NCBI GenBank assembly: GCA_037783545.1
Contig: JBBELK010000449.1
Span: 62,001 to 126,000 of the forward strand
Reading direction: 5' to 3'
From: Henricia sp. BOLD:AAB3569
Lineage: Eukaryota > Echinodermata > Asteroidea > Spinulosida > Echinasteridae
Length of the DNA: 64,000 nucleotides
The notes under the pieces are model-generated. The model saw only the letters and a program-made list of their open reading frames with translations. It made no database searches and was not told where the DNA came from. Shown in pieces: positions 23,301 through 64,000 of the stretch (its first letter is position 1; each line of letters opens with the position of its first letter). Position numbers and translations under genes: made by a program.

Positions 23301-25936
23301 CTTTCGGAAAACATTGCGTCCGAAGTGGTCGCTATTTTGGAACTGAAGGAATGTCCAGACAAACTTGAAATCTTGCCTGCTTTAACAACTCTATATCCCA
23401 AACGTATTCTGCAAATTTCAGCAATTTCCCCTTTAAACCGACCGAGTTATCGGTGAATCAAGCAAAAACTCCCTGCCGGCACAGTTTTCGCACAAGCAGA
23501 CGCCGCTTTCCGGAAACATTCCATCTGAAGTGGTCGCTATTTTGGAACTGAAGGAATGTCCAGACAAACTTGAAATTGTGCCTGCTAAAACAACTCTATA
23601 TCCCAAACGTATTCTGCAAATTTCAGCAATTTCCCGTTTAAACCGACCGAGTTATCGTTGAATCTAGCAAAAACTCCCTGCCGTCACAGTTTTCGCACAA
23701 GCAGATGCCGCTTTCGGGAAACATTTCGTCCGAAGTGGTCGCTATTTCAGAACTGAAGGAATGTACAGACAAACTTGAAATTTTGACTGCTTTAACAACT
23801 CTATATCCCAAACGTATTCTGCAAATTTCAGCAATTTCCCGTTTAAACCGAACAAGTTATCGTTGAATCTAGCAAAAACTCCCTGCCGTCACAGTTTTCG
23901 CACAAGCAGATGCCGCTTTCGTGAAACATTGCGTCCGAAGTGGTCGCTATTTTGGAACTGAAGGAATGTCCAGACAAACTTCAAATTTTGCCTGCTTTAA
24001 ACAACTCTATATCCCAAACGTATTCTGCAAATTTCAGCAATTTCCCGTTTAAACCAACCGAGTTATTGTCGAATCTAGCAAAAACTCCCCTGCCGGCACA
24101 TTTTTCGCACAAGCAGACGCCGCTTTCGGAAAACATTGCGTCTGAAGTGGTCGCTATTTTGGAACTGAAGGAATGTCCAGACAAATTTGAAATTTTGCCT
24201 GCTTTAACAACTCTATATCCCAAACGTATTCTGCAAATTTCAGTAATTTCCCGTTTAAACCGACCGAGTTATCGTTGAATCTAGCAAAAACTCCCTGCCG
24301 TCACAGTTTTCGCTCAAGCAGATGCCGCTTTCGGGAAACATTGCGTCCGAAGTGGTCGCTATTTTGGAACTAAAGGAATGTCCAGACAAACTTGAAATCT
24401 TGCCTGCTTTAACAACTCTATATCCCAAACGTATTCTGCAAATTTCAGCAATTTCCCGTTTAAACCGACCGAGTTATTGTCGAATCTAGCAAAAACTCCC
24501 CTGCCGGCACATTTTTCGCACAAGCAGACGCCGCTTTCGGAAAACATTGCGTCTGAAGTGGTCGCTCTTTTGGAACTGAAGGAATGTCCAGACAAATTTG
24601 AAATTTTGCCTGCTTTAACAACTCTATATCCCAAACGTATTCTGCAAATTTCAGCAATTTCCCGTTTAAACCGACCGAGTTATTGTTGAATCTAGCAAAA
24701 ACTCCCTGCCGGCACAGTTTTCGCACAACCGGACGCCGCTTTCCGGAAACATTCCATCTGAAGTGGTCGCTATTTTGGAACTAAAGGAATTTCCAGACAA
24801 ACTTCAGATTTTGCCTGCTAAAACAACTCTATATCCCAAACGTATTCTGCAAATTTCAGCAATGTCCCGTTTAAACCGACCGAGTTATTGTCGAATCTAG
24901 CAAAAACTCCCCTGCCGGCACATTTTTCGCACAAGCAGATGCCGCTTTTGTGAAACATTGCGTCCGAAGTGGTCGCTATTTTGGAACTGAAGGAATGTCC
25001 AGACAAACTTCAAATTTTGCCTGCTTTAACAACTCTATATCCCAAACGTATTCTGCAAATTTCAGCAATTTCCCGTTTAAACCGACCGAGTTATCGGTGA
25101 ATCTAGCAAAAACTCCCTGCCGGCACAGTTTTCGCACAACCGGACGCCTCTTTCCGGAAACATTCCATCTGAAGTGGTCGCTATTTTGGAACTGAAGGAA
25201 TTTCCAGACAAACTTCAAATTGTGCCTGCTAAAACAACTCTATATCCCAAACGTATTCTGCAAATTTCAGCAATTTCCCGTTTAAACCGACCGAGTTATC
25301 GTTGAATCCAGCAAAAACTCCCTGCCGTCACAGTTTTCGCTCAAGCAGATGCCGCTTTCGGGAAACATTGCGTCCGAAGTGGTCGCTATTTTGAAATTTT
25401 GCCTGCTTTAACAACTCTATATCCCAAACGTATTCTGCAAATGTCAGCAATTTCCCGTTTAAACCGACCGAGTTATCGGTGAATCTAGCAAAAACTCCAT
25501 GCCGGCACAGTTTTCGCATAAGCAGACGCCGCTTTCCGGAAACATTCCATCTGAAGTGGTCGTTATTTTGGAACTGAAGGAATGTCCAGACAAACTTGAA
25601 ATTGTGCCTGCTAAAACAACTCTATATCCCAAACGTATTCTGCAAATTTCAGCAATTTCCCGTTTAAACCGACCGAGTTATCGTCCAATCTAGCAAAAAC
25701 TCCCTGCCGGCACAGTTTTCGCACAACCGGACGCCGCTTTCCGGAAACATTCCATCTGAAGTGCTCGCTATTTTGGAACTAAAGGAATTTCCAGACAAAC
25801 TTCAGATTTTGTCTGCTAAAACAACTCTATATCCCAAACGTATTCTGCAAATTTCAGCAATGTCCCGTTTAAACCGACCGAGTTATTGTCGAATCTAGCA
25901 AAAACTCCCCTGCCGGCACATTTTTCGCACAAGCAG
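20398..25936 (+). repeat. 2642-bp A 13-mer HOR, two full copies and a partial third
   Basis: Copies at about 20398-23039 and 23040-25681 agree at nearly every base, with a partial third copy to about 25936. Differences between copies are single bases, such as CCCTTTAAACC near 23430, CAGTAATTTC near 24242 and TATTGTTGAATC near 24682. The unit contains the 177-bp short monomer (22751 and 25393), so it probably grew out of the 2230-bp HOR by gain of about two monomers. The third copy switches to another subtype where AGCAGATGCC replaces AGCAGACGCC. Confidence 0.88.
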
Positions 25937-42588: not shown

Positions 42589-43386
42589 AAGTGGTCGCTA
42601 TTTTGGAACTGAAGGAATGTCCAGACAAACTTGAAATCTTGCCTGCTTTAACAACTCTATATCCCAAACGTATTCTGCAAATTTCAGCAATTTCCCGTTT
42701 AAACCGACCGAGTTATCGGTGAATCAAGCAAAAACTCCCTGCCGGCACATTTTTCGCACAAGCAGACGCCGCTTTCGGGAAACATTTCGTCTGAAGTGGT
42801 CGCTATTTTGGAACTGAAGGAATGTCCAGACAAACTTCAAATTTTGCCTGCTTTAACAACTCTACATCCCAAAAGTATTCTGCAAATTTCAGCAATTTCC
42901 CGTTTAAACCGACCGAGTTATCGTTGAATCTAGCAAAAACTCCCTGCCGTCACAGTTTTCGCACAAGCAGACGCCGCTTTCGGGAAACATTTCGTCTGAA
43001 GTGGTCGCTATTTTGGAACTGAAGGAATGTCCAGACAAATTTGAAATTTTGACTGCTTTAACAACTCTATATCCCAAACGTATTCTGCAAAATTCAGCAA
43101 TTTCCCGTTTAAACCGACCGAGTTATCGTTGAATCTAGCAAAAACTCCCTGCCGGCTCAATTTTCGCACAAGCAGACGCCGCTTTCCGGAAACATTCCAT
43201 CTGAAGTGGTCGCTATTTTGTAACTGAAGGAATGTCCACACAAACTTCAAATTGTGCCTGCTAAAACAACTCTATATCCCAAACGTATTCTGCAAATTTC
43301 AGCAATTTCCCGTTTAAACCGACCGAGTTATCGTTTAATCTAGCAAAAACTCCCTGCCGTCACAGTTTTCGCTCAAGCAGATGCCG
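42589..43386 (+). repeat. A module of composite A+B HOR, copy 1 (798 bp)
   Basis: The last 798 bp of the long A array have the same length, subtype order and 3' breakpoint as the A island at 50931-51728 (constant offset 8342 bp). This stretch is therefore the first copy of the A module that is later repeated together with B. It differs from that copy at a few bases, such as GCAAAATTCAGC near 43090 and CGTTTAATCTAGC near 43333. Confidence 0.88.
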
Positions 43387-43903
43387 TTGACACGGCCCAG
43401 TTTGGGACGGGATTTTGGTCAAAGTGTGGTCCAAACGTCGGCAAATTTGGAGGTCGAAAAATGTTCCGACGAACTTCAAATTTTGCATGCTCCAAAGACT
43501 CTATATTGCGCACTTGTCCTAAAAAATTGACAGACTTTCGCCGGGAAATGGCAGAGAAATTTCAGAGTTTAGAAAAAAAAGGGGTTGGCGCTTCCTGGAT
43601 GCTCCCGCAACCTGTGGCTGTCTGTACACACCTCTTTGGTGTACTCCTGACTCGTGCGCATGCTCAGTCCTTCGGACTGTCGTTGACACGGCCCAGTTTG
43701 GGACGGGATTTTGGTCAAAGTGTGGTCCAAACGTCGGCAAATTTGGAGGTCGAAAAATGTTCCGACGAACTTCAAATTTTGCATGCTCCAAAGACTCTAT
43801 ATTGCGCACTTGTCCTAAAAAATTGACAGACTTTCGCCGGGAAATGGCAGAGAAATTTCAGAGTTTAGAAAAAAAAGGGGTTGGCGCTTCCTGGATGCTC
43901 CCG
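43387..43903 (+). repeat. Satellite B module 1 (517 bp, about 1.75 monomers)
   Basis: The first B sequence in the window. It starts at TTGACACGGCCC directly after A's GCAGATGCCG and ends in GGATGCTCCCG, where A resumes with AAGTGGTCGC. Length is one 296-bp monomer plus 221 bp. Its start and end breakpoints are identical to those of the later B modules, so it is a short member of the same composite repeat, not an independent insertion. Confidence 0.93.
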
Positions 43904-44496
43904 AAGTGGTCGCTATTTTGGAACTGAAGGAATGTCCAGACAAACTTGAAATCTTGCCTGCTTTAACAACTCTATATCCCAAACGTATTCTGCAAATTTC
44001 AGCAATTTCCCGTTTAAACCGACCGAGTTATCGGTGAATCAAGCAAAAACTCCCTGCCGGCACATTTTTCGCACAAGCAGACGCCGCTTTCGGGAAACAT
44101 TTCGTCTGAAGTGGTCGCTATTTTGGAACTGAAGGAATGTCCAGACAAACTTCAAATTTTGCCTGCTTTAACAACTCTACATCCCAAAAGTATTCTGCAA
44201 ATTTCAGCAATTTCCCGTTTAAACCGACCGAGTTATCGTTGAATCTAGCAAAAACTCCCTGCCGTCACAGTTTTCGCACAAGCAGACGCCGCTTTCGGGA
44301 AACATTTCGTCTGAAGTGGTCGCTATTTTGGAACTGAAGGAATGTCCAGACAAATTTGAAATTTTGACTGCTTTAACAACTCTATATCCCAAACGTATTC
44401 TGCAAATTTCAGCAATTTCCCGTTTAAACCGACCGAGTTATCGTTGAATCTAGCAAAAACTCCCTGCCGTCACAGTTTTCGCTCAAGCAGATGCCG
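43904..44496 (+). repeat. Satellite A island 1 (593 bp)
   Basis: Just under three A monomers between two B modules. It matches the 798-bp A modules except for the absence of one 205-bp monomer (the CCGGCTCAATTTTCGC copy). It begins at AAGTGGTCGC and ends at GCAGATGCCG, the same breakpoints as the other modules. Confidence 0.93.
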
Positions 44497-47400
44497 TTGA
44501 CACGGCCCAGTTTGGGACGGGATTTTGGTCAAAGTGTGGTCCAAACGTCGGCAAATTTGGAGGTCGAAAAATGTTCCGACGAACTTCAAATTCTGCATGC
44601 TCCAAAGACTCTATATTGCGCACTTGTCCTAAAAAATTGACAGACTTTCGCCGGGAAATGGCAGAGAAATTTCAGAGTTTAGAAAAAAAAGGGGTTGGCG
44701 CTTCCTGGATGCTCCCGCAACCTGTGGCTGTCTGTACACACCTCTTTGGTGTACTCCTGACTCGTGCGCATGCTCAGTCCTTCGGACTGTCGTTGACACG
44801 GCCCAGTTTGGGACGGGATTTTGGTCAAAGTGTGGTCCAAACGTCGGCAAATTTGGAGGTTGAAAAATGTTCAGACGAACTTCAAATTTTGCATGCTCCA
44901 AAGAATCTATATTGCGCACTTGTCCTAAAAAAATGACAGACTTTCGCCGGGAAATGGCAGAGAAATTTCAGAGTTTAGAAAAAAAAGGGGTTGGCGCTTC
45001 CTGGATGCTCCCGCAACCTGTGGCTGTCTGTACACACCTCTTTGGTGTACTCCTGACTCGTGCGCATGCTCAGTCCTTCGGACTGTCGTTGACACGGCCC
45101 AGTTTGGGACGGGATTTTGGTCAAAGTGTGGTCCAAACGTCGGCAAATTTGGAGGTCGAAAAATGTTCCGACGAACTTCAAATTTTGCATGCTCCAAAGA
45201 CTCTATATTGCGCAGTTGTCCTAAAAAATTGACAGACTTTCGCCGGGAAATGGCAGAGAAATTTCAGAGTTTAGAAAAAAAGGGGTTGGCGCTTCCTGGA
45301 TGCTCCCGCAACCTGTGGCTGTCTGTACACACCTCTTTGGTGTACTCCTGACTCGTGCGCATGCTCAGTCCTTCGGACTGTCGTTGACACGGCCCAGTTT
45401 GGGACGGGATTTTGGTCAAAGTGTGGTCCAAACGTCGGCAAATTTGGAGGTTGAAAAATGTTCCGACGAACTTCAAATTTTGCATGCTCCAAAGACTCTA
45501 TATTGCGCACTTGTCCTAAAAAAATGACAGACTTTCGCCGGGAAATGGCAGATAAATTTCAGAGTTTAGAACAAAAAGGGGTTGGCGCTTCCTGGATGCT
45601 CCCGCAACCTGTGGCTGTCTGTACACACCTCTTTGGTGTACTCCTGACTCGTGCGCATGCTCAGTCCTTCGGACTGTCGTTGACACGGCCCAGTTTGGGA
45701 CGGGATTTTGGTCAAAGTGTGGTCCAAACGTCGGCAAATTTGGAGGTCGAAAAATGTTCCGACGAACTTCAAATTTTGCATGCTCCAAAGACTCTATATT
45801 GCGCACTTGTCCTAAAAAATTGACAGACTTTCGCCGGGAAATGGCAGAGAAATTCCAGAGTTTAGAAAAAAAAGGGGTTGGCGCTTCCTGGATGCTCCCG
45901 CAACCTGTGGCTGTCTGTACACACCTCTTTGGTGTACTCCTGACTCGTGCGCATGCTCAGTCCTTCGGACTGTCGTTGACACGGCCCAGTTTGGGACGGG
46001 ATTTTGGTCAAAGTGTGGTCCAAACGTCGGCAAATTTGGAGGTCGAAAAATGTTCCCACGAACTTCAAATTTTGCATGCTCCAAAGACTCTATATTGCGC
46101 ACTTGTCCTAAAAAATTGACAGACTTTCGCCGGGAAATGGCAGAGAAATTCCAGAGTTTAGAAAAAAAAGGGGTTGGCGCTTCCTGGATGCTCCCGCAAC
46201 CTGTGGCTGTCTGTACACACCTCTTTGGTGTACTCCTGACTGGTGCGCATGCTCAGTCCTTCGGACTGTCGTTGACACGGCCCAGTTTGGGACGGGATTT
46301 TGCTCAAAGTGTGGTCCAAACGTCGGCAAATTTGGAGGTCAAGAAATGTTCTGACGAACTTCAAATTTTGCATGCTCCAAAGACTCTATATTGCGCAGTT
46401 GTCCTAAAAAATTGACAGACTTTCGCCGGGAAATGGCAGAGAAATTTCAGAGTTTAGAAAAAAAAGGGGTTGGCGCTTCCTGGATGCTCCCGCAACCTGT
46501 GGCTGTCTGTACACACCTCTTTGGTGTACTCCTGACTCGTGCGCATGCTCAGTCCTTCGGACTGTCGTTGACACGGCCCAGTTTGGGACGGGATTTTGGT
46601 CAAAGTGTGGTCCAAACGTCGGCAAATTTGGAGGTCGAAAAATGTTCCGACGATCTTCAAATTTTGCATGCTCCAAAGACTCTATATTGCGCACTTGTCC
46701 TAAAAAATTGACAGACTTTCGCCGGGAAATGGCAGATAAATTTCAGAGTTTAGTACAAAAAGGGGTTGGCGCTTCCTGGATGCTCCCCCAACCTGTGGCT
46801 GTCTGTACACACCTCTTTGGTGTACTCCTGACTCGTGCGCATGCTCAGTCCTTCGGACTGTCGTTGACACGGCCCAGTTTGGGACGGGATTTTGGTCAAA
46901 GTGTGGTCCAAACGTCGGCAAATTTGGAGGTCGAAAAATGTTCCGACGAACTTCAAATTTTGCATGCTCCAAAGACTCTATATTGCGCACTTGTCCTAAA
47001 AAATTGACAGACTTTCGCCGGGAAATGGCAGAGAAATTTCAGAGTTTAGAAAAAAAAGGGGTTGGCGCTTCCTGGATGCTCCCGCAACCTGTGGCTGTCT
47101 GTACACACCTCTTTGGTGTACTCCTGACTCGTGCGCATGCTCAGTCCTTCGGACTGTCGTTGACACGGCCCAGTTTGGGACGGGATTTTGGTCAAAGTGT
47201 TGGCCAAACGTCGGCAAATTTGGAGGTCGAAAAATGTTCCGACGAACTTCAAATTTTGCATGCTCCAAAGACTCTTTATTGCGCACTTGTCCTAAAAAAT
47301 TGACAGACTTTCGCCGGGAAATGGCAGAGAAATTCCAGAGTTTAGAAAAAAAAGGGGTTGGCGCTTCCTGGATGCTCCCGCAACCTGTGGCTGTCTGTAC

Positions 47401-47947
47401 ACACCTCTTTGGTGTACTCCTGACTCGTGCGCATGCTCAGTCCTTCGGACTGTCGTTGACACGGCCCAGTTTGGGACGGGATTTTGCTCAAAGTGTGGTC
47501 CAAACGTCGGCAAATTTGGAGGTCGAAAAATGTTCCGACGAACTTCAAATTTTGCATGCTCCAAAGACTCTATATTGCGCACTTGTCCTAAAAAATTGAC
47601 AGACTTTCGCCGGGAAATGGCAGAGAAATTTCAGAGTTTAGAAAAAAAAGGGGTTGGCGCTTCCTGGATGCTCCCGCAACCTGTGGCTGTCTGTACACAC
47701 CTCTTTGGTGTACTCCTGACTCGTGCGCATGCTCAGTCCTTCGGACTGTCGTTGACACGGCCCAGTTTGGGACGGGATTTTGGTCAAAGTGTGGTCCAAA
47801 CGTCGGCAAATTTGGAGGTCGAAAAATGTTCCGACGAACTTCAAATTTTGCATGCTCCAAAGACTCTATATTGCGCACTTGTCCTAAAAAATTGACAGAC
47901 TTTCGCCGGGAAATGGCAGAGAAATTTCAGAGTTTAGAAAAAAAAGG

Positions 47948-47977
47948 GGTTGGCGCTTCCTGGATGCTCCCGCAACC
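47948..47977 (+). other. B inverted repeat 1 (GGTT-G-GCG / CGCAACC)
   Basis: Seven potential base pairs with one bulged G and a loop of about 15 nt, directly after the A8-G4 run. It is present in nearly all B monomers; a few have CCCCCAACC instead of CCCGCAACC, which weakens the stem. The B-to-A junctions cut inside this element. Function unknown. Confidence 0.5.
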
Positions 47978-47988
47978 TGTGGCTGTCT

Positions 47989-48009
47989 GTACACACCTCT
48001 TTGGTGTAC
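47989..48009 (+). other. B inverted repeat 2 (GTACAC / GTGTAC)
   Basis: A perfect 6-bp inverted repeat around a 9-nt loop, with an alternative register ACACC/GGTGT around 5 nt. It lies in the B-specific segment. A few monomers have ACACACATC, which removes one pair of the alternative register only. Confidence 0.5.
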
Positions 48010-48029
48010 TCCTGACTCGTGCGCATGCT

Positions 48030-48044
48030 CAGTCCTTCGGACTG
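48030..48044 (+). other. B inverted repeat 3 (CAGTCC-TTC-GGACTG)
   Basis: A perfect 6-bp stem with a 3-nt loop, unchanged in every B monomer I read. The A-to-B junctions lie 3 nt past its right arm, and the 56-bp deletion shared by the short B monomers starts about 11 nt past it. It may form a cruciform or a hairpin during replication; this is inference. Confidence 0.6.
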
Positions 48045-50930
48045 TCGTTGACACGGCCCAGTTTGGGAGGGGATTTTGGTCAAAGTGTGGTCCAAACGTC
48101 GGCAAATTTGGAGGTTGAAAAATGTTCCGACGAACTTCAAATTTTGCATGCTCCAAAGACTCTATATTGCGCACTTGTCCTAAAAAATTGACAGACTTTC
48201 GCCGGGAAATGGCAGAGAAATTTCAGAGTTTAGAAAAAAAGGGGTTGGCGCTTCCTGGATGCTCCCGCAACCTGTGGCTGTCTGTACACACCTCTTTGGT
48301 GTACTCCTGACTCGTGCGCATGCTCAGTCCTTCGGACTGTCGTTGACACGGCCCAGTTTGGGACGGGATTTTGGTCAAAGTGTGGTCCAAACGTCGGCAA
48401 ATTTGGAGGTCGAAAAATGTTCCGACGAACTTCAAATTTTGCATGCTCCAAAGACTCTATATTGCGCACTTGTCCTAAAACATTGACAGACTTTCGCCGG
48501 GAAATGGCAGAGAAATTTCAGAGTTTAGAAAAAAAAGGGGTTGGCGCTTCCTGGATGCTCCCGCAACCTGTGGCTGTCTGTACACACCTCTTTGGTGTAC
48601 TCCTGACTCGTGCGCATGCTCAGTCCTTCGGACTGTCGTTGACACGGCCCAGTTTGGGACGGGATTTTGGTCAAAGTGTTGGCCAAACGTCGGCAAATTT
48701 GGAGGTCGAAAAATGTTCCGACGAACTTCAAATTTTGCATGCTCCAAAGACTCTTTATTGCGCACTTGTCCTAAAAAATTGACAGACTTTCGCCGGGAAA
48801 TGGCAGAGAAATTCCAGAGTTTAGAAAAAAAAGGGGTTGGCGCTTCCTGGATGCTCCCGCAACCTGTGGCTGTCTGTACACACCTCTTTGGTGTACTCCT
48901 GACTCGTGCGCATGCTCAGTCCTTCGGACTGTCGTTGACACGGCCCAGTTTGGGACGGGATTTTGCTCAAAGTGTGGTCCAAACGTCGGCAAATTTGGAG
49001 GTCGAAAAATGTTCCGACGAACTTCAAATTTTGCATGCTCCAAAGACTCTATATTGCGCACTTGTCCTAAAAAATTGACAGACTTTCGCCGGGAAATGGC
49101 AGAGAAATTTCAGAGTTTAGAAAAAAAAGGGGTTGGCGCTTCCTGGATGCTCCCGCAACCTGTGGCTGTCTGTACACACCTCTTTGGTGTACTCCTGACT
49201 CGTGCGCATGCTCAGTCCTTCGGACTGTCGTTGACACGGCCCAGTTTGGGACGGGATTTTGGTAAAAGTGTGGTCCAAACGTCGGAAAATTTGGAGGTCG
49301 AAAAATGTTCCGACGAACTTCAAATTTTGCATGCTCCAAAGACTCTATATTGCGCACTTGTCCTAAAAAATTGACAGACTTTCGCCGGGAAATGGCAGAG
49401 AAATTTCAGAGTTTAGAAAAAAAAAGGGGTTGGCGCTTCCTGGATGCTCCCGCAACCTGTGGCTGTCTGTACACACCTCTTTGGTGTACTCCTGACTCGT
49501 GCGCATGCTCAGTCCTTCGGACTGTCGTTGACACGGCCCAGTTTGGGAGGGGATTTTGGTCAAAGTGTGGTCCAAACGTCGGCAAATTTGGAGGTTGAAA
49601 AATGTTCCGACGAACTTCAAATTTTGCATGCTCCAAAGACTCTATATTGCGCACTTGTCCTAAAAAATTGACAGACTTTCGCCGGGAAATGGCAGAGAAA
49701 TTTCAGAGTTTAGAAAAAAAGGGGTTGGCGCTTCCTGGATGCTCCCGCAACCTGTGGCTGTCTGTACACACCTCTTTGGTGTACTCCTGACTCGTGCGCA
49801 TGCTCAGTCCTTCGGACTGTCGTTGACACGGCCCAGTTTGGGACGGGATTTTGGTCAAAGTGTGGTCCAAACGTCGGCAAATTTGGAGGTCGAAAAATGT
49901 TCCGACGAACTTCAAATTTTGCATGCTCCAAAGACTCTATATTGCGCACTTGTCCTAAAAAATTGACAGACTTTCGCCGGGAAATGGCAGAGAAATTTCA
50001 GAGTTTAGAAAAAAAAGGGGTTGGCGCTTCCTGGATGCTCCCGCAACCTGTGGCTGTCTGTACACACCTCTTTGGTGTACTCCTGACTCGTGCGCATGCT
50101 CAGTCCTTCGGACTGTCGTTGACACGGCCCAGTTTGGGACGGGATTTTGGTCAAAGTGTGGTCCAAACGTCGGCAAATTTGGAGGTCGAAAAATGTTCCG
50201 ACGAACTTCAAATTTTGCATGCTCCAAAGACTCTATATTGCGCACTTGTCCTAAAAAATTGACAGACTTTCGCCGGGAAATGGCAGAGAAATTTCAGAGT
50301 TTAGAAAAAAAGGGGTTGGCGCTTCCTGGATGCTCCCGCAACCTGTGGCTGTCTGTACACACCTCTTTGGTGTACTCCTGACTCGTGCGCATGCTCAGTC
50401 CTTCGGACTGTCGTTGACACGGCCCAGTTTGGGACGGGATTTTGGTCAAAGTGTGGTCCAAACGTCGGCAAATTTGGAGGTCGAAAAATGTTCCGACGAA
50501 CTTCAAATTTTGCATGCTCCAAAGACTCTATATTGCGCACTTGTCCTAAAAAATTGACAGACTTTCGCCGGGAAATGGCAGAGAAATTTCAGAGTTTAGA
50601 AAAAAAAGGGGTTGGCGCTTCCTGGATGCTCCCGCAACCTGTGGCTGTCTGTACACACCTCTTTGGTGTACTCCTGACTCGTGCGCATGCTCAGTCCTTC
50701 GGACTGTCGTTGACACGGCCCAGTTTGGGACGGGATTTTGGTCAAAGTGTGGTCCAAACGTCGGCAAATTTGGAGGTCGAAAAATGTTCCGACGAACTTC
50801 AAATTTTGCATGCTCCAAAGACTCTATATTGCGCACTTGTCCTAAAAAATTGACAGACTTTCGCCGGGAAATGGCAGAGAAATTTCAGAGTTTAGAAAAA
50901 AAAGGGGTTGGCGCTTCCTGGATGCTCCCG

Positions 50931-51728
50931 AAGTGGTCGCTATTTTGGAACTGAAGGAATGTCCAGACAAACTTGAAATCTTGCCTGCTTTAACAACTCT
51001 ATATCCCAAACGTATTCTGCAAATTTCAGCAATTTCCCGTTTAAACCGACCGAGTTATCGGTGAATCAAGCAAAAACTCCCTGCCGGCACATTTTTCGCA
51101 CAAGCAGACGCCGCTTTCGGGAAACATTTCGTCTGAAGTGGTCGCTATTTTGGAACTGAAGGAATGTCCAGACAAACTTCAAATTTTGCCTGCTTTAACA
51201 ACTCTACATCCCAAAAGTATTCTGCAAATTTCAGCAATTTCCCGTTTAAACCGACCGAGTTATCGTTGAATCTAGCAAAAACTCCCTGCCGTCACAGTTT
51301 TCGCACAAGCAGACGCCGCTTTCGGGAAACATTTCGTCTGAAGTGGTCGCTATTTTGGAACTGAAGGAATGTCCAGACAAATTTGAAATTTTGACTGCTT
51401 TAACAACTCTATATCCCAAACGTATTCTGCAAATTTCAGCAATTTCCCGTTTAAACCGACCGAGTTATCGTTGAATCTAGCAAAAACTCCCTGCCGGCTC
51501 AATTTTCGCACAAGCAGACGCCGCTTTCCGGAAACATTCCATCTGAAGTGGTCGCTATTTTGTAACTGAAGGAATGTCCACACAAACTTCAAATTGTGCC
51601 TGCTAAAACAACTCTATATCCCAAACGTATTCTGCAAATTTCAGCAATTTCCCGTTTAAACCGACCGAGTTATCGTTGAATCTAGCAAAAACTCCCTGCC
51701 GTCACAGTTTTCGCTCAAGCAGATGCCG
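50931..51728 (+). repeat. Satellite A island 2 (798 bp)
   Basis: Nearly four A monomers, matching the last 798 bp of the long A array at a constant offset of 8342 bp, with the same 5' start (AAGTGGTCGC after GCTCCCG) and 3' end (GCAGATGCCG). It contains the CCGGCTCAATTTTCGC monomer that the 593-bp island lacks. Confidence 0.93.
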
Positions 51729-54700
51729 TTGACACGGCCCAGTTTGGGACGGGATTTTGGTCAAAGTGTGGTCCAAACGTCGGCAAATTTGGAGGTCGAA
51801 AAATGTTCCGACGAACTTCAAATTCTGCATGCTCCAAAGACTCTATATTGCGCACTTGTCCTAAAAAATTGACAGACTTTCGCCGGGAAATGGCAGAGAA
51901 ATTTCAGAGTTTAGAAAAAAAAGGGGTTGGCGCTTCCTGGATGCTCCCGCAACCTGTGGCTGTCTGTACACACCTCTTTGGTGTACTCCTGACTCGTGCG
52001 CATGCTCAGTCCTTCGGACTGTCGTTGACACGGCCCAGTTTGGGACGGGATTTTGGTCAAAGTGTGGTCCAAACGTCGGCAAATTTGGAGGTTGAAAAAT
52101 GTTCAGACGAACTTCAAATTTTGCATGCTCCAAAGAATCTATATTGCGCACTTGTCCTAAAAAAATGACAGACTTTCGCCGGGAAATGGCAGAGAAATTT
52201 CAGAGTTTAGAAAAAAAAGGGGTTGGCGCTTCCTGGATGCTCCCGCAACCTGTGGCTGTCTGTACACACCTCTTTGGTGTACTCCTGACTCGTGCGCATG
52301 CTCAGTCCTTCGGACTGTCGTTGACACGGCCCAGTTTGGGACGGGATTTTGGTCAAAGTGTGGTCCAAACGTCGGCAAATTTGGAGGTTGAAAAATGTTC
52401 CGACGAACTTCAAATTTTGCATGCTCCAAAGACTCTATATTGCGCACTTGTCCTAAAAAAATGACAGACTTTCGCCGGGAAATGGCAGATAAATTTCAGA
52501 GTTTAGAACAAAAAGGGGTTGGCGCTTCCTGGATGCTCCCGCAACCTGTGGCTGTCTGTACACACCTCTTTGGTGTACTCCTGACTCGTGCGCATGCTCA
52601 GTCCTTCGGACTGTCGTTGACACGGCCCAGTTTGGGACGGGATTTTGGTCAAAGTGTGGTCCAAACGTCGGCAAATTTGGAGGTCGAAAAATGTTCCGAC
52701 GAACTTCAAATTTTGCATGCTCCAAAGACTCTATATTGCGCACTTGTCCTAAAAAATTGACAGACTTTCGCCGGGAAATGGCAGAGAAATTCCAGAGTTT
52801 AGAAAAAAAAGGGGTTGGCGCTTCCTGGATGCTCCCGCAACCTGTGGCTGTCTGTACACACCTCTTTGGTGTACTCCTGACTCGTGCGCATGCTCAGTCC
52901 TTCGGACTGTCGTTGACACGGCCCAGTTTGGGACGGGATTTTGGTCAAAGTGTGGTCCAAACGTCGGCAAATTTGGAGGTCGAAAAATGTTCCCACGAAC
53001 TTCAAATTTTGCATGCTCCAAAGACTCTATATTGCGCACTTGTCCTAAAAAATTGACAGACTTTCGCCGGGAAATGGCAGAGAAATTCCAGAGTTTAGAA
53101 AAAAAGGGGTTGGCGCTTCCTGGATGCTCCCGCAACCTGTGGCTGTCTGTACACACCTCTTTGGTGTACTCCTGACTGGTGCGCATGCTCAGTCCTTCGG
53201 ACTGTCGTTGACACGGCCCAGTTTGGGACGGGATTTTGCTCAAAGTGTGGTCCAAACGTCGGCAAATTTGGAGGTCAAGAAATGTTCTGACGAACTTCAA
53301 ATTTTGCATGCTCCAAAGACTCTATATTGCGCAGTTGTCCTAAAAAATTGACAGACTTTCGCCGGGAAATGGCAGAGAAATTTCAGAGTTTAGAAAAAAA
53401 AGGGGTTGGCGCTTCCTGGATGCTCCCGCAACCTGTGGCTGTCTGTACACACCTCTTTGGTGTACTCCTGACTCGTGCGCATGCTCAGTCCTTCGGACTG
53501 TCGTTGACACGGCCCAGTTTGGGACGGGATTTTGGTCAAAGTGTGGTCCAAACGTCGGCAAATTTGGAGGTCGAAAAATGTTCCGACGATCTTCAAATTT
53601 TGCATGCTCCAAAGACTCTATATTGCGCACTTGTCCTAAAAAATTGACAGACTTTCGCCGGGAAATGGCAGATAAATTTCAGAGTTTAGTACAAAAAGGG
53701 GTTGGCGCTTCCTGGATGCTCCCCCAACCTGTGGCTGTCTGTACACACCTCTTTGGTGTACTCCTGACTCGTGCGCATGCTCAGTCCTTCGGACTGTCGT
53801 TGACACGGCCCAGTTTGGGACGGGATTTTGGTCAAAGTGTGGTCCAAACGTCGGCAAATTTGGAGGTCGAAAAATGTTCCGACGAACTTCAAATTTTGCA
53901 TGCTCCAAAGACTCTATATTGCGCACTTGTCCTAAAAAATTGACAGACTTTCGCCGGGAAATGGCAGAGAAATTTCAGAGTTTAGAAAAAAAAGGGGTTG
54001 GCGCTTCCTGGATGCTCCCGCAACCTGTGGCTGTCTGTACACACCTCTTTGGTGTACTCCTGACTCGTGCGCATGCTCAGTCCTTCGGACTGTCGTTGAC
54101 ACGGCCCAGTTTGGGACGGGATTTTGCTCAAAGTGTGGTCCAAACGTCGGCAAATTTGGAGGTCGAAAAATGTTCCGACGAACTTCAAATTTTGCATGCT
54201 CCAAAGACTCTATATTGCGCACTTGTCCTAAAAAATTGACAGACTTTCGCCGGGAAATGGCAGAGAAATTTCAGAGTTTAGAAAAAAAGGGGTTGGCGCT
54301 TCCTGGATGCTCCCGCAACCTGTGGCTGTCTGTACACACCTCTTTGGTGTACTCCTGACTCGTGCGCATGCTCAGTCCTTCGGACTGTCGTTGACACGGC
54401 CCAGTTTGGGACGGGATTTTGGTAAAAGTGTGGTCCAAACGTCGGAAAATTTGGAGGTCGAAAAATGTTCCGACGAACTTCAAATTTTGCATGCTCCAAA
54501 GACTCTATATTGCGCACTTGTCCTAAAAAATTGACAGACTTTCGCCGGGAAATGGCAGAGAAATTTCAGAGTTTAGAAAAAAAAAGGGGTTGGCGCTTCC
54601 TGGATGCTCCCGCAACCTGTGGCTGTCTGTACACACCTCTTTGGTGTACTCCTGACTCGTGCGCATGCTCAGTCCTTCGGACTGTCGTTGACACGGCCCA

Positions 54701-57700
54701 GTTTGGGAGGGGATTTTGGTCAAAGTGTGGTCCAAACGTCGGCAAATTTGGAGGTTGAAAAATGTTCCGACGAACTTCAAATTTTGCATGCTCCAAAGAC
54801 TCTATATTGCGCACTTGTCCTAAAAAATTGACAGACTTTCGCCGGGAAATGGCAGAGAAATTTCAGAGTTTAGAAAAAAAGGGGTTGGCGCTTCCTGGAT
54901 GCTCCCGCAACCTGTGGCTGTCTGTACACACCTCTTTGGTGTACTCCTGACTCGTGCGCATGCTCAGTCCTTCGGACTGTCGTTGACACGGCCCAGTTTG
55001 GGACGGGATTTTGGTCAAAGTGTGGTCCAAACGTCGGCAAATTTGGAGGTCGAAAAATGTTCCGACGAACTTCAAATTTTGCATGCTCCAAAGACTCTAT
55101 ATTGCGCACTTGTCCTAAAAAATTGACAGACTTTCGCCGGGAAATGGCAGAGAAATTTCAGAGTTTAGAAAAAAAAGGGGTTGGCGCTTCCTGGATGCTC
55201 CCGCAACCTGTGGCTGTCTGTACACACCTCTTTGGTGTACTCCTGACTCGTGCGCATGCTCAGTCCTTCGGACTGTCGTTGACACGGCCCAGTTTGGGAC
55301 GGGATTTTGGTCAAAGTGTGGTCCAAACGTCGGCAAATTTGGAGGTCGAAAAATGTTCCGACGAACTTCAAATTTTGCATGCTCCAAAGACTCTATATTG
55401 CGCACTTGTCCTAAAAAATTGACAGACTTTCGCCGGGAAATGGCAGAGAAATTTCAGAGTTTAGAAAAAAAAGGGGTTGGCGCTTCCTGGATGCTCCCGC
55501 AACCTGTGGCTGTCTGTACACACCTCTTTGGTGTACTCCTGACTCGTGCGCATGCTCAGTCCTTCGGACTGTCGTTGACACGGCCCAGTTTGGGACGGGA
55601 TTTTGGTCAAAGTGTGGTCCAAACGTCGGCAAATTTCGAGGTCGAAAAATGTTCCGACGAACTTCAAATTTGGCATGCTCCAAAGACTCTATATTGCGCA
55701 CTTGTCCTAAAAAATTGACAGACTTTCGCCGGGAAATGGCAGAGAAATTTCAGAGTTTAGAAAAAAAAGGGGTTGGCGCTTCCTGGATGCTCCCCCAACC
55801 TGTGGCTGTCTGTACACACCTCTTTGGTGTACTCCTGACTCGTGCGCATGCTCAGTCCTTCGGACTGTCGTTGACACGGCCCAGTTTGGGACGGGCTTTT
55901 GGTCAAAGTGTGGTCCAAACGTCGGCAAATTTGGAGGTCGAAAAATGTTCCGACGAACTTCAAATTTTGCATGCTCCAAAGACTCTATATTGCGCACTTG
56001 TCCTAAAAAATTGACAGACTTTCGCCGGGAAATGGCAGAGAAATTTCAGAGTTTAGAAAAAAAAGGGGTTGGCGCTTCCTGGATGCTCCCGCAACCTGTG
56101 GCTGTCTGTACACACCTCTTTGGTGTACTCCTGACTCGTGCGCATGCTCAGTCCTTCGGACTGTCGTTGACACGGCCCAGTTTGGGACGGGATTTTGGTC
56201 AAAGTGTGGTCCAAACGTCGGCAAATTTGGAGGTCGAGAAATGTTCCGACGAACTTCAAATTTTGCATGCTCCAAAGACTCTATATTGCGCACTTGTCCT
56301 AAAAAATTGACAGACTTTCGCCGGGAAATGGCAGAGAAATTTCAGAGTTTAGAAAAAAAAGGGGTTGGCGCTTCCTGGATGCTCCCGCAACCTGTGGCTG
56401 TCTGTACACACCTCTTTGGTGTACTCCTGACTCGTGCGCATGCTCAGTCCTTCGGACTGTCGTTGACACGGCCCAGTTTGGGACGGGATTTTGGTCAAAG
56501 TGTGGTCCAAACGTCGGCAAATTTGGAGGTCGAAAAATGTTCCGACGAACTTCAAATTTTGCATGCTCCAAAGACTCTATATTGCGCACTTGTCCTAAAA
56601 AATTGACAGACTTTCGCCGGGAAATGGCAGAGAAATTTCAGAGTTTAGAAAAAAAAGGGGTTGGCGCTTCCTGGATGCTCCCGCAACCTGTGGCTGTCTG
56701 TACACACCTCTTTGGTGTACTCCTGACTCGTGCGCATGCTCAGTCCTTCGGACTGTCGTTGACACGGCCCAGTTTGGGACGGGATTTTGGTCAAAGTGTG
56801 GTCCAAACGTCGGCAAATTTCGAGGTCGAAAAATGTTCCGACGAACTTCAAATTTTGCATGCTCCAAAGACTCTATATTGCGCACTTGTCCTAAAAAATT
56901 GACAGACTTTCGCCGGGAAATGGCAGAGAAATTTCAGAGTTTAGAAAAAAAAGGGGTTGGCGCTTCCTGGATGCTCCCCCAACCTGTGGCTGTCTGTACA
57001 CACCTCTTTGGTGTACTCCTGACTCGTGCACATGCTCAGTCCTTCGGACTGTCGTTGACACGGCCCAGTTTGGGACGGGATTTTGGTCAAAGTGTGGTCC
57101 AAACGTCGGCAAATTTGGAGGTCGAAAAATGTTCCGACGAACTTCAAATTTTGCATGCTCCAAAGACTCTATATTGCGCACTTGTCCTAAAAAATTGACA
57201 GACTTTCGCCGGGAAATGGCAGAGAAATTTCAGAGTTTAGAAAAAAAAGGGGTTGGCGCTTCCTGGATGCTCCCGCAACCTGTGGCTGTCTGTACACACC
57301 TCTTTGGTGTACTCCTGACTCGTGCGCATGCTCAGTCCTTCGGACTGTCGTTGACACGGCCCAGTTTGGGACGGGATTTTGGTCAAAGTGTGGTCCAAAC
57401 GTCGGCAAATTTGGAGGTCGAAAAATGTTCCGACGAACTTAAAATTTTGCATGCTCCAAAGACTCTATATTGCGCACTTGTCCTAAAAAATTGACAGACT
57501 TTCGCCGGGAAATGGCAGAGAAATTTCAGAGTTTAGAAAAAAAAGGGGTTGGCGCTTCCTGGATGCTCCCGCAACCTGTGGCTGTCTGTACACACATCTT
57601 TGGTGTACTCCTGACTCGTGCGCATGCTCAGTCCTTCGGACTGTCGTTGACACGGCCCAGTTTGGGACGGGATTTTGGTCAAAGTGTGGTCCAAACGTCG

Positions 57701-59718
57701 GCAAATTTGGAGGTCGAAAAATGTTCCGACGAACTTCAAATTTTGCATGCTCCAAAGACTCTATATTGCGCACTTGTCCTAAAAAATTGACAGACTTTCG
57801 CCGGGAAATGGCAGAGAAATTTCAGAGTTTAGAAAAAAAAGGGGTTGGCGCTTCCTGGATGCTCCCGCAACCTGTGGCTGTCTGTACACACCTCTTTGGT
57901 GTACTCCTGACTCGTGCGCATGCTCAGTCCTTCGGACTGTCGTTGACACGGCCCAGTTTGGGACGGGATTTTGGTCAAAGTGTGGTCCAAACGTCGGCAA
58001 ATTTGGAGGTCGAGAAATGTTCCGACGAACTTCAAATTTTGCATGCTCCAAAGACTCTATATTGCGCACTTGTCCTAAAAAATTGACAGACTTTCGCCGG
58101 GAAATGGCAGAGAAATTTCAGAGTTTAGAAAAAAAAGGGGTTGGCGCTTCCTGGATGCTCCCGCAACCTGTGGCTGTCTGTACACACCTCTTTGGTGTAC
58201 TCCTGACTCGTGCGCATGCTCAGTCCTTCGGACTGTCGTTGACACGGCCCAGTTTGGGACGGGATTTTGGTCAAAGTGTGGTCCAAACGTCGGCAAATTT
58301 TGAGGTCGAAAAATGTTCCGACGAACTTCAAATTTTGCATGCTCCAAAGACTCTATATTGCGCACTTGTCCTAAAAAATTGACAGACTTTCGCCGGGAAA
58401 TGGCAGAGAAATTTCAGAGTTTAGAAAAAAAAGGGGTTGGCGCTTCCTGGATGCTCCCGCAACCTGTGGCTGTCTGTACACACCTCTTTGGTGTACTCCT
58501 GACTCGTGCGCATGCTCAGTCCTTCGGACTGTCGTTGACACGGCCCAGTTTGGGACGGGATTTTGGTCAAAGTGTGGTCCAAACGTCGGCAAATTTCGAG
58601 GTCGAAAAATGTTCCGACGAACTTCAAATTTTGCATGCTCCAAAGACTCTATATTGCGCACTTGTCCTAAAAAATTGACAGACTTTCGCCGGGAAATGGC
58701 AGAGAAATTTCAGAGTTTAGAAAAAAAAGGGGTTGGCGCTTCCTGGATGCTCCCCCAACCTGTGGCTGTCTGTACACACCTCTTTGGTGTACTCCTGACT
58801 CGTGCGCATGCTCAGTCCTTCGGACTGTCGTTGACACGGCCCAGTTTGGGACGGGATTTTGGTCAAAGTGTGGTCCAAACGTCGGCAAATTTGGAGGTCG
58901 AAAAATGTTCCGACGAACTTCAAATTTTGCATGCTCCAAAGACTCTATATTGCGCACTTGTCCTAAAAAATTGACAGACTTTCGCCGGGAAATGGCAGAG
59001 AAATTTCAGAGTTTAGAAAAAAAAGGGGTTGGCGCTTCCTGGATGCTCCCGCAACCTGTGGCTGTCTGTACACACCTCTTTGGTGTACTCCTGACTCGTG
59101 CGCATGCTCAGTCCTTCGGACTGTCGTTGACACGGCCCAGTTTGGGACGGGATTTTGGTCAAAGTGTGGTCCAAACGTCGGCAAATTTCGAGGTCGAAAA
59201 ATGTTCCGACGAACTTCAAATTTTGCATGCTCCAAAGACTCTATATTGCGCACTTGTCCTAAAAAATTGACAGACTTTCGCCGGGAAATGGCAGAGAAAT
59301 TTCAGAGTTTAGAAAAAAAAGGGGTTGGCGCTTCCTGGATGCTCCCGCAACCTGTGGCTGTCTGTACACACCTCTTTGGTGTACTCCTGACTCGTGCGCA
59401 TGCTCAGTCCTTCGGACTGTCGTTGACACGGCCCAGTTTGGGACGGGATTTTGGTCAAAGTGTGGTCCAAACGTCGGCAAATTTCGAGGTCGAAAAATGT
59501 TCCGACGAACTTCAAATTTTGCATGCTCCAAAGACTCTATATTGCGCACTTGTCCTAAAAAATTGACAGACTTTCGCCGGGAAATGGCAGAGAAATTTCA
59601 GAGTTTAGAAAAAAAAGGGGTTGGCGCTTCCTGGATGCTCCCGCAACCTGTGGCTGTCTGTACACACCTCTTTGGTGTACTCCTGACTCGTGCGCATGCT
59701 CAGTCCTTCGGACTGTCG

Positions 59719-59958
59719 TTGACACGAGGTCGAAAAATGTTCCGACGAACTTCAAATTTTGCATGCTCCAAAGACTCTATATTGCGCACTTGTCCTAAAA
59801 AATTGACAGACTTTCGCCGGGAAATGGCAGAGAAATTTCAGAGTTTAGAAAAAAAAGGGGTTGGCGCTTCCTGGATGCTCCCGCAACCTGTGGCTGTCTG
59901 TACACACCTCTTTGGTGTACTCCTGACTCGTGCGCATGCTCAGTCCTTCGGACTGTCG
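59719..59958 (+). repeat. Short B monomer 1 (240 bp)
   Basis: A 56-bp deletion joins TTGACACG to AGGTCGAAAA. It removes the GGCCCAGTTTGGG part and most of the G-rich start but keeps the three inverted repeats. Because 240 is divisible by three while 296 is not, an open frame continues into the next monomer and reaches 201 codons (59497-60102). The sequence suits a deletion in a monomer with AATTTCGAGG, using a 2-bp CG overlap. Confidence 0.92.
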
Positions 59959-60254
59959 TTGACACGGCCCAGTTTGGGACGGGATTTTGGTCAAAGTGTG
60001 GTCCAAACGTCGGCAAATTTCGAGGTCGAAAAATGTTCCGACGAACTTCAAATTTTGCATGCTCCAAAGACTCTATATTGCGCACTTGTCCTAAAAAATT
60101 GACAGACTTTCGCCGGGAAATGGCAGAGAAATTTCAGAGTTTAGAAAAAAAAGGGGTTGGCGCTTCCTGGATGCTCCCGCAACCTGTGGCTGTCTGTACA
60201 CACCTCTTTGGTGTACTCCTGACTCGTGCGCATGCTCAGTCCTTCGGACTGTCG

Positions 60255-60494
60255 TTGACACGAGGTCGAAAAATGTTCCGACGAACTTCAAATTTTGCAT
60301 GCTCCAAAGACTCTATATTGCGCACTTGTCCTAAAAAATTGACAGACTTTCGCCGGGAAATGGCAGAGAAATTTCAGAGTTTAGAAAAAAAAGGGGTTGG
60401 CGCTTCCTGGATGCTCCCGCAACCTGTGGCTGTCTGTACACACATCTTTGGTGTACTCCTGACTCGTGCGCATGCTCAGTCCTTCGGACTGTCG
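60255..60494 (+). repeat. Short B monomer 2 (240 bp)
   Basis: Same 56-bp deletion as the preceding short copy, 536 bp (one full plus one short monomer) downstream, so the two form a dimeric unit. It also gives an extended 201-codon frame (60033-60638). Its 3' part has ACACACATC. Confidence 0.92.
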
Positions 60495-61974
60495 TTGACA
60501 CGGCCCAGTTTGGGACGGGATTTTGGTCAAAGTGTGGTCCAAACGTCGGCAAATTTGGAGGTCGAAAAATGTTCCGACGAACTTCAAATTTTGCATGCTC
60601 CAAAGACTCTATATTGCGCACTTGTCCTAAAAAATTGACAGACTTTCGCCGGGAAATGGCAGAGAAATTTCAGAGTTTAGAAAAAAAAGGGGTTGGCGCT
60701 TCCTGGATGCTCCCGCAACCTGTGGCTGTCTGTACACACCTCTTTGGTGTACTCCTGACTCGTGCGCATGCTCAGTCCTTCGGACTGTCGTTGACACGGC
60801 CCAGTTTGGGACGGGATTTTGGTCAAAGTGTGGTCCAAACGTCGGCAAATTTGGAGGTCGAAAAATGTTCCGACGAACTTCAAATTTTGCATGCTCCAAA
60901 GACTCTATATTGCGCACTTGTCCTAAAAAATTGACAGACTTTCGCCGGGAAATGGCAGAGAAATTTCAGAGTTTAGAAAAAAAAGGGGTTGGCGCTTCCT
61001 GGATGCTCCCGCAACCTGTGGCTGTCTGTACACACCTCTTTGGTGTACTCCTGACTCGTGCGCATGCTCAGTCCTTCGGACTGTCGTTGACACGGCCCAG
61101 TTTGGGACGGGATTTTGGTCAAAGTGTGGTCCAAACGTCGGCAAATTTCGAGGTCGAAAAATGTTCCGACGAACTTCAAATTTTGCATGCTCCAAAGACT
61201 CTATATTGCGCACTTGTCCTAAAAAATTGACAGACTTTCGCCGGGAAATGGCAGAGAAATTTCAGAGTTTAGAAAAAAAAGGGGTTGGCGCTTCCTGGAT
61301 GCTCCCCCAACCTGTGGCTGTCTGTACACACCTCTTTGGTGTACTCCTGACTCGTGCACATGCTCAGTCCTTCGGACTGTCGTTGACACGGCCCAGTTTG
61401 GGACGGGATTTTGGTCAAAGTGTGGTCCAAACGTCGGCAAAATTGGAGGTCGAAAAATGTTCCGACGAACTTCAAATTTTGCATGCTCCAAAGACTCTAT
61501 ATTGCGCACTTGTCCTAAAAAATTGACAGACTTTCGCCGGGAAATGGCAGAGAAATTTCAGAGTTTAGAAAAAAAAGGGGTTGGCGCTTCCTGGATGCTC
61601 CCGCAACCTGTGGCTGTCTGTACACACCTCTTTGGTGTACTCCTGACTCGTGCGCATGCTCAGTCCTTCGGACTGTCGTTGACACGGCCCAGTTTGGGAC
61701 GGGATTTTTGTCAAAGTGTGGTCCAAACGTCGGCAAATTTGGAGGTCGAAAAATGTTCCGACGAACTTAAAATTTTGCATGCTCCAAAGACTCTATATTG
61801 CGCACTTGTCCTAAAAAATTGACAGACTTTCGCCGGGAAATGGCAGAGAAATTTCAGAGTTTAGAAAAAAAAGGGGTTGGCGCTTCCTGGATGCTCCCGC
61901 AACCTGTGGCTGTCTGTACACACCTCTTTGGTGTACTCCTGACTCGTGCGCATGCTCAGTCCTTCGGACTGTCG

Positions 61975-62214
61975 TTGACACGAGGTCGAAAAATGTTCCG
62001 ACGAACTTCAAATTTTGCATGCTCCAAAGACTCTATATTGCGCACTTGTCCTAAAAAATTGACAGACTTTCGCCGGGAAATGGCAGAGAAATTTCAGAGT
62101 TTAGAAAAAAAAGGGGTTGGCGCTTCCTGGATGCTCCCGCAACCTGTGGCTGTCTGTACACACCTCTTTGGTGTACTCCTGACTCGTGCGCATGCTCAGT
62201 CCTTCGGACTGTCG
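61975..62214 (+). repeat. Short B monomer 3 (240 bp)
   Basis: Same deletion scar. It is followed by a monomer beginning TTGACATGGCCC, a private C-to-T change that recurs after short copy 5. A 200-codon frame runs from 61798 to 62400. Confidence 0.92.
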
Positions 62215-62511
62215 TTGACATGGCCCAGTTTGGGACGGGATTTTGGTCAAAGTGTGGTCCAAACGTCGGCAAATTTGGAGATCGAAAAATGTTCCGACGA
62301 ACTTCAAATTTTGCATGCTCCAAAGACTCTATATTGCGCACTTGTCCTAAACAATTTACAGACTTTCGCCGAGAAATGGCAGAGAAATTTCAGAGTTTAG
62401 AATAAAAAAGGGGTTGGCGCTTCCTGGATGCTCCCGCAACCTGTGGCTGTCTGTACACACCTCTTTGGTGTACTCCTGACTCGTGCGCATGCTCAGTCCT
62501 TCGGACTGTCG

Positions 62512-62750
62512 TTGACACGAGGTCGAAAAATGTTCCGACGAACTTCAAATTTTGCATGCTCCAAAGACTCTATATTGCGCACTTGTCCTAAAAAATTGAC
62601 AGACTTTCGCCGGGAAATGACAGAGAAATTTCAGAGTTTAGAAAAAAAGGGGTTGGCGCTTCCTGGATGCTCCCGCAACCTGTGGCTGTCTGTACACACA
62701 TCTTTGGTGTACTCCTGACTCGTGCGCATGCTCAGTCCTTCGGACTGTCG
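62512..62750 (+). repeat. Short B monomer 4 (239 bp)
   Basis: Same deletion scar; one base shorter because the A run has seven A. The preceding full monomer has AATAAAAAAGGGG in place of the A8 run and TAAACAATTTACAG in place of the usual TAAAAAATTGACAG. Confidence 0.9.
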
Positions 62751-63637
62751 TTGACACGGCCCAGTTTGGGACGGGATTTTGGTCAAAGTGTGGTCCAAAC
62801 GTCGGCAAATTTGGAGGTCGAAAAATGTTCCGACGAACTTCAAATTGTGCATGCTCCAAAGACTCTATATTGCGCACTTGTCCTAAACAATTTACAGACT
62901 TTCGCCGGGAAATGGCAGAGAAATTTCAGAGTTTAGAAAAAAAAGGGGTTGGCGCTTCCTGGATGCTCCCGCAACCTGTGGCTGTCTGTACACACCTCTT
63001 TGGTGTACTCCTGACTCGTGCGCATGCTCAGTCCTTCGGACTGTCGTTGACACGGCCCAGTTTGGGACGGGATTTTGGTCAAAGTGTGGTCCAAACGTCG
63101 GCAAATTTGGAGGTCGAAAAATGTTCCGACGAACTTCAAATTTTGCATGCTCCAAAGACTCTATATTGCGCACTTGTCCTACATAATTGACAGACTTTCG
63201 CCGGGAAATGGCAGAGAAATTTCAGAGTTTAGAAAAAAAAGGGGTTGGCGCTTCCTGGATGCTCCCGCAACCTGTGGCTGTCTGTACACACCTCTTTGGT
63301 GTACTCCTGACTCGTGCGCATGCTCAGTCCTTCGGACTGTCGTTGACACGGCCCAGTTTGGGACGGGATTTTGGTCAAAGTGTGGTCCAAACGTCGGCAA
63401 ATTTGGAGGTCGAAAAATGTTCCGACGAACTTAAAATTTTGCATGCTCCAAAGACTCTATATTGCGCACTTGTCCTAAAAAATTGACAGACTTTCGCCGG
63501 GAAATGGCAGAGAAATTTCAGAGTTTAGAAAAAAAGGGGTTGGCGCTTCCTGGATGCTCCCGCAACCTGTGGCTGTCTGTACACACCTCTTTGGTGTACT
63601 CCTGACTCGTGCGCATGCTCAGTCCTTCGGACTGTCG

Positions 63638-63877
63638 TTGACACGAGGTCGAAAAATGTTCCGACGAACTTCAAATTTTGCATGCTCCAAAGACTCTATA
63701 TTGCGCACTTGTCCTAAAAAATTGACAGACTTTCGCCGGGAAATGGCAGAGAAATTTCAGAGTTTAGAAAAAAAAGGGGTTGGCGCTTCCTGGATGCTCC
63801 CGCAACCTGTGGCTGTCTGTACACACCTCTTTGGTGTACTCCTGACTCGTGCGCATGCTCAGTCCTTCGGACTGTCG
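63638..63877 (+). repeat. Short B monomer 5 (240 bp)
   Basis: Same deletion scar, followed by TTGACATGGCCC as after short copy 3. The spacing of 1663 bp between the two TTGACATGGCCC sites equals four full plus two short monomers, so a HOR of about 1664 bp is repeating at the right edge of the window. Confidence 0.9.
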
Positions 63878-64000
63878 TTGACATGGCCCAGTTTGGGACG
63901 GGATTTTGGTCAAAGTGTGGTCCAAACGTCGGCAAATTTGGAGATCGAAAAATGTTCCGACGAACTTCAAATTTTGCATGCTCCAAAGACTCTATATTGC

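Follow-up and report, generated by a model that had tools for sequence, protein, structure and literature searches.

An apparently recently copied border between two related satellite arrays in a 64-kb window

Introduction

Arrays of different satellites that adjoin or interrupt one another have been described in several systems. The closest published cases are the TmSat1/TmSat2 cassettes of Tribolium madens and the composite repeats of Meloidogyne. In T. madens, TmSat1 and TmSat2 are intermingled satellites of common descent with conserved borders, all three conserved elements are present in 3,385 of 5,764 TmSat2 arrays (59%), and the arrays form inverted macro-dyads (PMC13081366). The higher-order repeats of Meloidogyne chitwoodi and M. 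fallax consist of diverged satellites with shared conserved stretches, joined at fixed junctions; short conserved boxes contain the joints, and each unit strings together single monomers of different satellites (PMC3694981). Abrupt switches between satellite arrays are also reported for cactophilic Drosophila (Kuhn et al. 2009, as cited in PMC3694981), whose satellites are described as nonhomologous (PMC3694981). In the centromeres of the Mongolian gerbil, different repeats of 6, 37, 127 and 1,747 bp form alternating arrays (PMC10210625), and junctions of mouse satellites are in print as well (PMC10880262).

The DNA analysed here, a stretch of 64 kb referred to as the window, contains two satellites, A and B. 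Like the T. madens cassettes, these are intermingled kin satellites with conserved transition zones and a varying number of minor-satellite repeats between the borders. The likeness is one of description, and unlike in T. madens there are five joints of two types, in one orientation and within one 64-kb window. As in Meloidogyne, diverged satellites with a stretch in common are joined at fixed junctions. Here, however, runs of B take turns with a stretch of A, and on the B side the joints fall outside the region over which A and B align. The array switches are abrupt as in cactophilic Drosophila, but A and B are related. The gerbil repeats resemble A and B in arrangement. A literature search with A and B strings of 17-21 bases and with the repeat lengths found no paper on the A or B repeats, and a search for shared satellite breakpoints found none on that subject.

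Organization of the window

The whole window consists of tandem repeats, with A up to position 43386 and then B, interrupted by two short returns to A. TRF rows with periods of 205/410 bp and 296/240 bp covered the window except for 43387-43902, 62221-62277 and 63646-64000, and these three gaps were assigned to B by unit segmentation. Units of A and B tile the window on the plus strand, inversions being absent within it. The arrays, modules and junctions are as follows:

1-43386, plus strand: satellite A array (TRF, monomer segmentation), with 205-bp monomers and a weak 410-bp dimer period, continuing past the left window edge
42589-43386, plus strand: A1, the 798 bp that end the A array, putative template of the later A modules (796/798 identical to 50931-51728)
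43386/43387, plus strand: A-to-B junction 1, GATGCCG to TTGACAC (exact string search)
43387-43903, plus strand: B module 1 of 517 bp, composed of a full 296-bp unit plus a partial one of 221 bp (B01, B02; junction search, unit variants)
43903/43904, plus strand: B-to-A junction 1, GCTCCCG to AAGTGG (exact search; 988-bp context as at B-to-A junction 2)
43904-44496, plus strand: A2, 593 bp, a copy of A1/A3 without one 205-bp monomer (sequence comparison)
44496/44497, plus strand: A-to-B junction 2 (exact string search)
44497-50930, plus strand: B module 2 of 6434 bp, composed of 21 full units plus a partial one of 221 bp (B03-B24; TRF, unit variants)
50930/50931, plus strand: B-to-A junction 2 (exact string search)
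50931-51728, plus strand: A3, 798 bp (sequence comparison)
51728/51729, plus strand: A-to-B junction 3 (exact string search)
51729-55574, plus strand: first 13 units of B module 3 (B25-B37), colinear with module 2 (10/10 informative haplotypes in common)
55575-64000, plus strand: remainder of B module 3 (B38-B67), passing the right window edge (0/23 informative haplotypes of B38-B66 shared; five units with a 56-bp deletion)

The module lengths given in the first-pass annotation (798, 593 and 798 bp for A; 517, 6434 and at least 12272 bp for B) are correct. Its description of three A modules holds for their lengths and for their being copies, but the first of them is the end of the A array at 1-43386 and has no left edge of its own. 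The sequence shows no edge at 42589, since the A array runs unbroken to 43386 according to TRF; this position only matches the start of the later copies.

B was cut into 67 units (B01-B67) of 296 bp, a few of 240 bp, and the variants were listed for each unit. The A consensus was built from 205 of 218 A segments (201 to 209 bp), 13 segments being dropped. Mean pairwise identity is 94.3% among the A segments and 98.9% among the B segments. The higher homogeneity of B suggests that it was amplified more recently than A.

Both A and B form long head-to-tail arrays of similar monomers. Four open reading frames of at least 150 aa were found with the bacterial code, the longest of 201 aa, and none of them spans an array. 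Rfam returned no match at gathering score in the window and none with E up to 1 in 44497-46300, so that by open reading frame spans and Rfam the arrays show neither a conserved coding frame nor a known RNA. The DNA of the window is non-coding satellite DNA, most likely of eukaryotic origin. Pattern scans of viral and prokaryote contig collections yielded no match, and neither did distant blastn searches of plasmids with 596 bases of B and of phages with 1,410 bases taken from A and B module 1. Since these collections do not contain eukaryote genomes as such, the missing matches say little about the source.

Some further features of the arrays were recorded. Bases 1-1369 of the A array are 100% identical to 1231-2599 over 1,369 bp, a shift of 1,230 bp or six monomers, which by its sequence identity points to a very recent duplication within A. 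Monomers of 177 bp occur at intervals of about 2.2 to 3.3 kb in the A array at 14855-25570 (TRF rows; five 177-bp segments), a sign of larger blocks inside A. The observed/expected ratio of CpG is 1.25 in the A array (1-43386) and 0.92 in B module 3 (51729-64000). This lack of depletion would argue against heavy CpG methylation.

The first-pass annotation had spoken of two satellite families. Two satellites are indeed present, but the unrelatedness implied by this wording does not hold. In a gap-tolerant local alignment of the consensus sequences on the same strand, A and B are identical at 118 of 167 positions, with a score of 43; 500 shuffles averaged 12.2 and did not exceed 23. The total of a global scoring lies 5.7 z above 300 shuffles; the ends taken alone were insignificant in this scoring (0.09 and 0.55 of 500 shuffles as good or better). 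Judged from these alignments, A and B are diverged members of one superfamily, with homology claimed for the aligned 167-position stretch only. A composite of unrelated satellites was rejected on the same values.

Junctions and A modules

Three A-to-B and two B-to-A junctions with the same breakpoints had been proposed, and exact searches confirmed all five to the base. The A-to-B string GATGCCGTTGACAC has three exact plus-strand matches in the 64 kb, starting at 43380, 44490 and 51722, and the B-to-A string GCTCCCGAAGTGG has two, starting at 43897 and 50924. Both B-to-A joints are embedded in a spanning context of 988 bp (517 bp of B and 471 bp of A) without any difference between the copies. 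Around the A-to-B joint, modules 2 and 3 agree exactly for 122 bp leftward and 660 bp rightward; joint 1 matches either of the later A-to-B joints exactly for 50 bp to the left and 96 bp to the right. The same breakpoints, the identical B-to-A contexts and the common order of B variants described below support the view that the junctions were copied along with their surroundings and not made independently.

At the B-to-A joint the parent sequences read GCGTCCG/AAGTGG (A, left of 42589) and GCTCCCG/CAACC (B, as it normally continues), so CCG is common to both. At the A-to-B joint the parents share CG. A microhomology of 3 bp is weak, as it arises by simple arithmetic in about 1 in 64 cases by chance, and short shared bases at joints are often to be expected by chance.

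A1 and A3 are identical at 796 of 798 positions. A2 matches A3 at 593/593 positions apart from one 205-bp gap and A1 at 592/593, the monomer missing from A2 being present in A1, in A3 and in the stretch of the A array at 5585. The A-array stretches closest to A1 start at 5585 (5 differences) and at 9686 (7 differences); A3 differs from the 5585 stretch by 3 bases and from A1 by 2. At the two sites that distinguish A1 from A3, both stretches carry the A3 base, which indicates that A1 probably changed after copying. At three further sites A1 and A3 agree against the 5585 stretch. There they have the common A-array base (G in 151/154, 180/199 and 197/205 context matches), and these sites therefore fail to tie A3 to A1. 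With regard to the source of the A copies, the A sequence alone is suggestive, not decisive.

Colinear B units in modules 2 and 3

The same order of variants opens both of these modules, a unit with T97C followed by a unit with C69T C81A C113A T141A. The next variant unit common to both carries C69T T141A G170T A189C and is preceded in module 2 by B05, which has no counterpart. A local alignment of the unit haplotypes of both modules, in which the length of one poly-A run was disregarded, scored 22.2 compared to a mean of 5.5 and a maximum of 11.0 in 2,000 permutations. In the first 13 units of module 3, 10/10 informative haplotypes are common with module 2, whereas in the following 29 units (B38-B66) the value is 0/23. 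Single variants, e.g. G221C and A72G, are found in the copied part as well as in B38-B66, but in different haplotypes.

Twelve unit pairs of modules 2 and 3, picked after the haplotypes had been seen, exhibit no substitution and two indel columns in 3,550 bases compared. For comparison, 240 other pairs from this range have on average 4.03 substitutions each, and when the twelve were re-paired at random 500 times, the totals came to at least 24 substitutions. B05, B12-B17, B22-B24 and B37 remained unpaired. The differences in whole B units between the modules demand both gains and losses. Within module 2 there is an apparent five-unit repeat (46757-47949 compared to 48236-49428, 99.6%, shift 1479).

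Two other observations concern the B units. The same 56-bp deletion (unit positions 8-63) is present in five units at 59719-63877, in the distal part of module 3, among units of full length. At unit position 188, one-base differences in the length of an A-run split otherwise identical units (44497-63637), which may be due either to slippage or to sequencing error.

The 75-bp stretch between the junction points

The stretch of B between the two B-side junction points comprises 75 bp and occurs 64 times, 57 times as the reference sequence and 7 times with one mismatch. In full-length B units, 3/75 sites are variable in this stretch compared to 35/221 elsewhere (Fisher p 0.008). The comparison used 59/67 units, excluding truncated units and those of 221 bp and 239/240 bp; it was made on a region already picked from the junctions, and the sites were taken as independent. 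Positions 1-25 and 201-225 of the B unit, which adjoin the stretch, likewise vary little. We do not claim the stretch to be a discrete inserted block, because its edges were derived from the junctions, making the argument circular, and its neighbours are of low diversity, too. The low diversity of the stretch is thus a lead only. Its similarity to A and to the rest of B was not above that of shuffles. An RNA element was also considered and discarded: the stretch folds hardly better than shuffles, the fold z values of the two strands being -1.14 and -1.51, with 29 and 16 of 200 shuffles as good or better, and there was no Rfam match.

Both consensus sequences were scored with the consensus of the CENP-B box. 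Positions 101-117 of the A consensus, on the minus strand, carry 8/9 essential bases, a value reached by 3.7% of 300 shuffles, and the B consensus carries 7/9, reached by 58% of 300 shuffles. The CENP-B-like 17-mer of A (1-51728) is exact at 170/191 upstream-anchor places and falls in a part of the monomer that is among the least variable. We make no claim of a CENP-B box in A or B.

Origin of the arrangement

The data are best explained by a tandem duplication across a single A/B border, followed by unequal exchange, and we consider this course of events likely. An A array would have been joined once to a B array at GATGCCG/TTGACAC, a first join that we infer. A segment straddling this border, with 798 bp of A and about a dozen or more B units, would then have been duplicated in tandem, creating the B-to-A joint GCTCCCG/AAGTGG at a place where both parents read CCG. 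The colinearity of the B units and the joints in common speak for this second step. In a third step, reconstructed only in part from the data, a third copy of the unit may have been gained by unequal homologous exchange. Whether before or after this gain, A2 would have lost one A monomer through exchange or deletion of whole monomers, a process that probably also contracted B module 1 and left modules 2 and 3 unlike by complete B units. We claim no function other than array turnover for the A/B region.

The abrupt end of haplotype sharing after 13 units (10/10, then 0/23) is what a duplication of the border predicts. Furthermore, about a dozen B units were already present in the unit when it was copied between modules 2 and 3, indicating that module 1, with only 1.75 units, is probably a contracted copy; alternatively it might be an older short form. 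T97C, which marks the first unit of module 2 and that of module 3, is missing from B01, so that an extra exchange is needed.

It was also conceivable that a composite unit, at first with little B, multiplied as a higher-order repeat and that B then grew separately in each copy. Such a course would fit the identical joints of the three A and three B modules and the mere 1.75 B units of module 1. However, the variant order common to modules 2 and 3 over about a dozen units means that the B part was already long when it was copied, there is no separate module boundary on the side of the A array, and only two long copies exist. We therefore regard this account as unlikely. The same results bear on the first-pass annotation, according to which an A+B unit had formed once and was then amplified as a unit while B kept expanding. 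The copying of an A/B piece is borne out by the alignment score of modules 2 and 3 and by the substitution-free pairs chosen from them, but a regular amplification of units is not. B units were gained as proposed, but monomers were also lost, as seen in A2 and in the unit losses of modules 2 and 3, and as is probable for module 1. The term composite higher-order repeat was an overstatement. The copies are indeed more alike than the monomers within them, both in A and in the chosen B pairs, but instead of a regular array of units of constant length there are two long modules and one stump of unequal lengths, and no informative haplotype of module 2 recurs in units 14-42 of module 3.

Misassembly is common in satellite arrays. 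The Tribolium paper concedes the same for its own arrays (PMC13081366). Two versions of one A/B border, from haplotypes or collapsed copies, might thus have been strung together. In the window, however, the B-to-A joint is found at two places, and the A module behind it measures 593 bp in one and 798 bp in the other. Nor are the copies exact loops, since whole monomers set them apart. On this internal evidence an assembly error is quite unlikely.

Insertion of a B cassette into the A array, e.g. from an extrachromosomal circle, would make the right-hand A the continuation of the left-hand A. A is in fact present on both sides of B in modules 1 and 2, and the A-side breakpoints are separated by 22 bp of A with close phases. 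But A2 and A3 repeat the A1 stretch and do not carry on with its next monomers, and the second and third B modules are copies in colinear order, which leaves this insertion very improbable; a circle bearing A and B together may have reinserted. Repeated switching of the arrays at a preferred recombination or protein-binding site, to which the low diversity of the 75 bp bounded by the B-side breakpoints might point, is hardly to be believed, since the edges of this stretch were defined from the junctions, so that their coincidence is circular, and copying alone explains the identical flanks of the joints.

Conclusions

The border between A and B appears to have been copied in tandem recently and is a clear yet ordinary instance of satellite DNA rearrangement. 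A far wider interpretation would see in it a composite higher-order repeat caught near its birth, with tandem duplication of A/B borders, not insertion, as a general route for the interleaving of related satellites and the 75-bp stretch of B as a protein-binding or recombination element directing it; we hold this interpretation to be unlikely. Alone, the A/B border is one more case of the known type of interleaved satellites. It is nevertheless a readable record of satellite turnover, in which colinear variants reveal the copied piece, its end and the later loss and gain of monomers. If the same joints occur elsewhere in the genome, it would become directly testable whether such borders are copied or whether a preferred breakpoint is reused.
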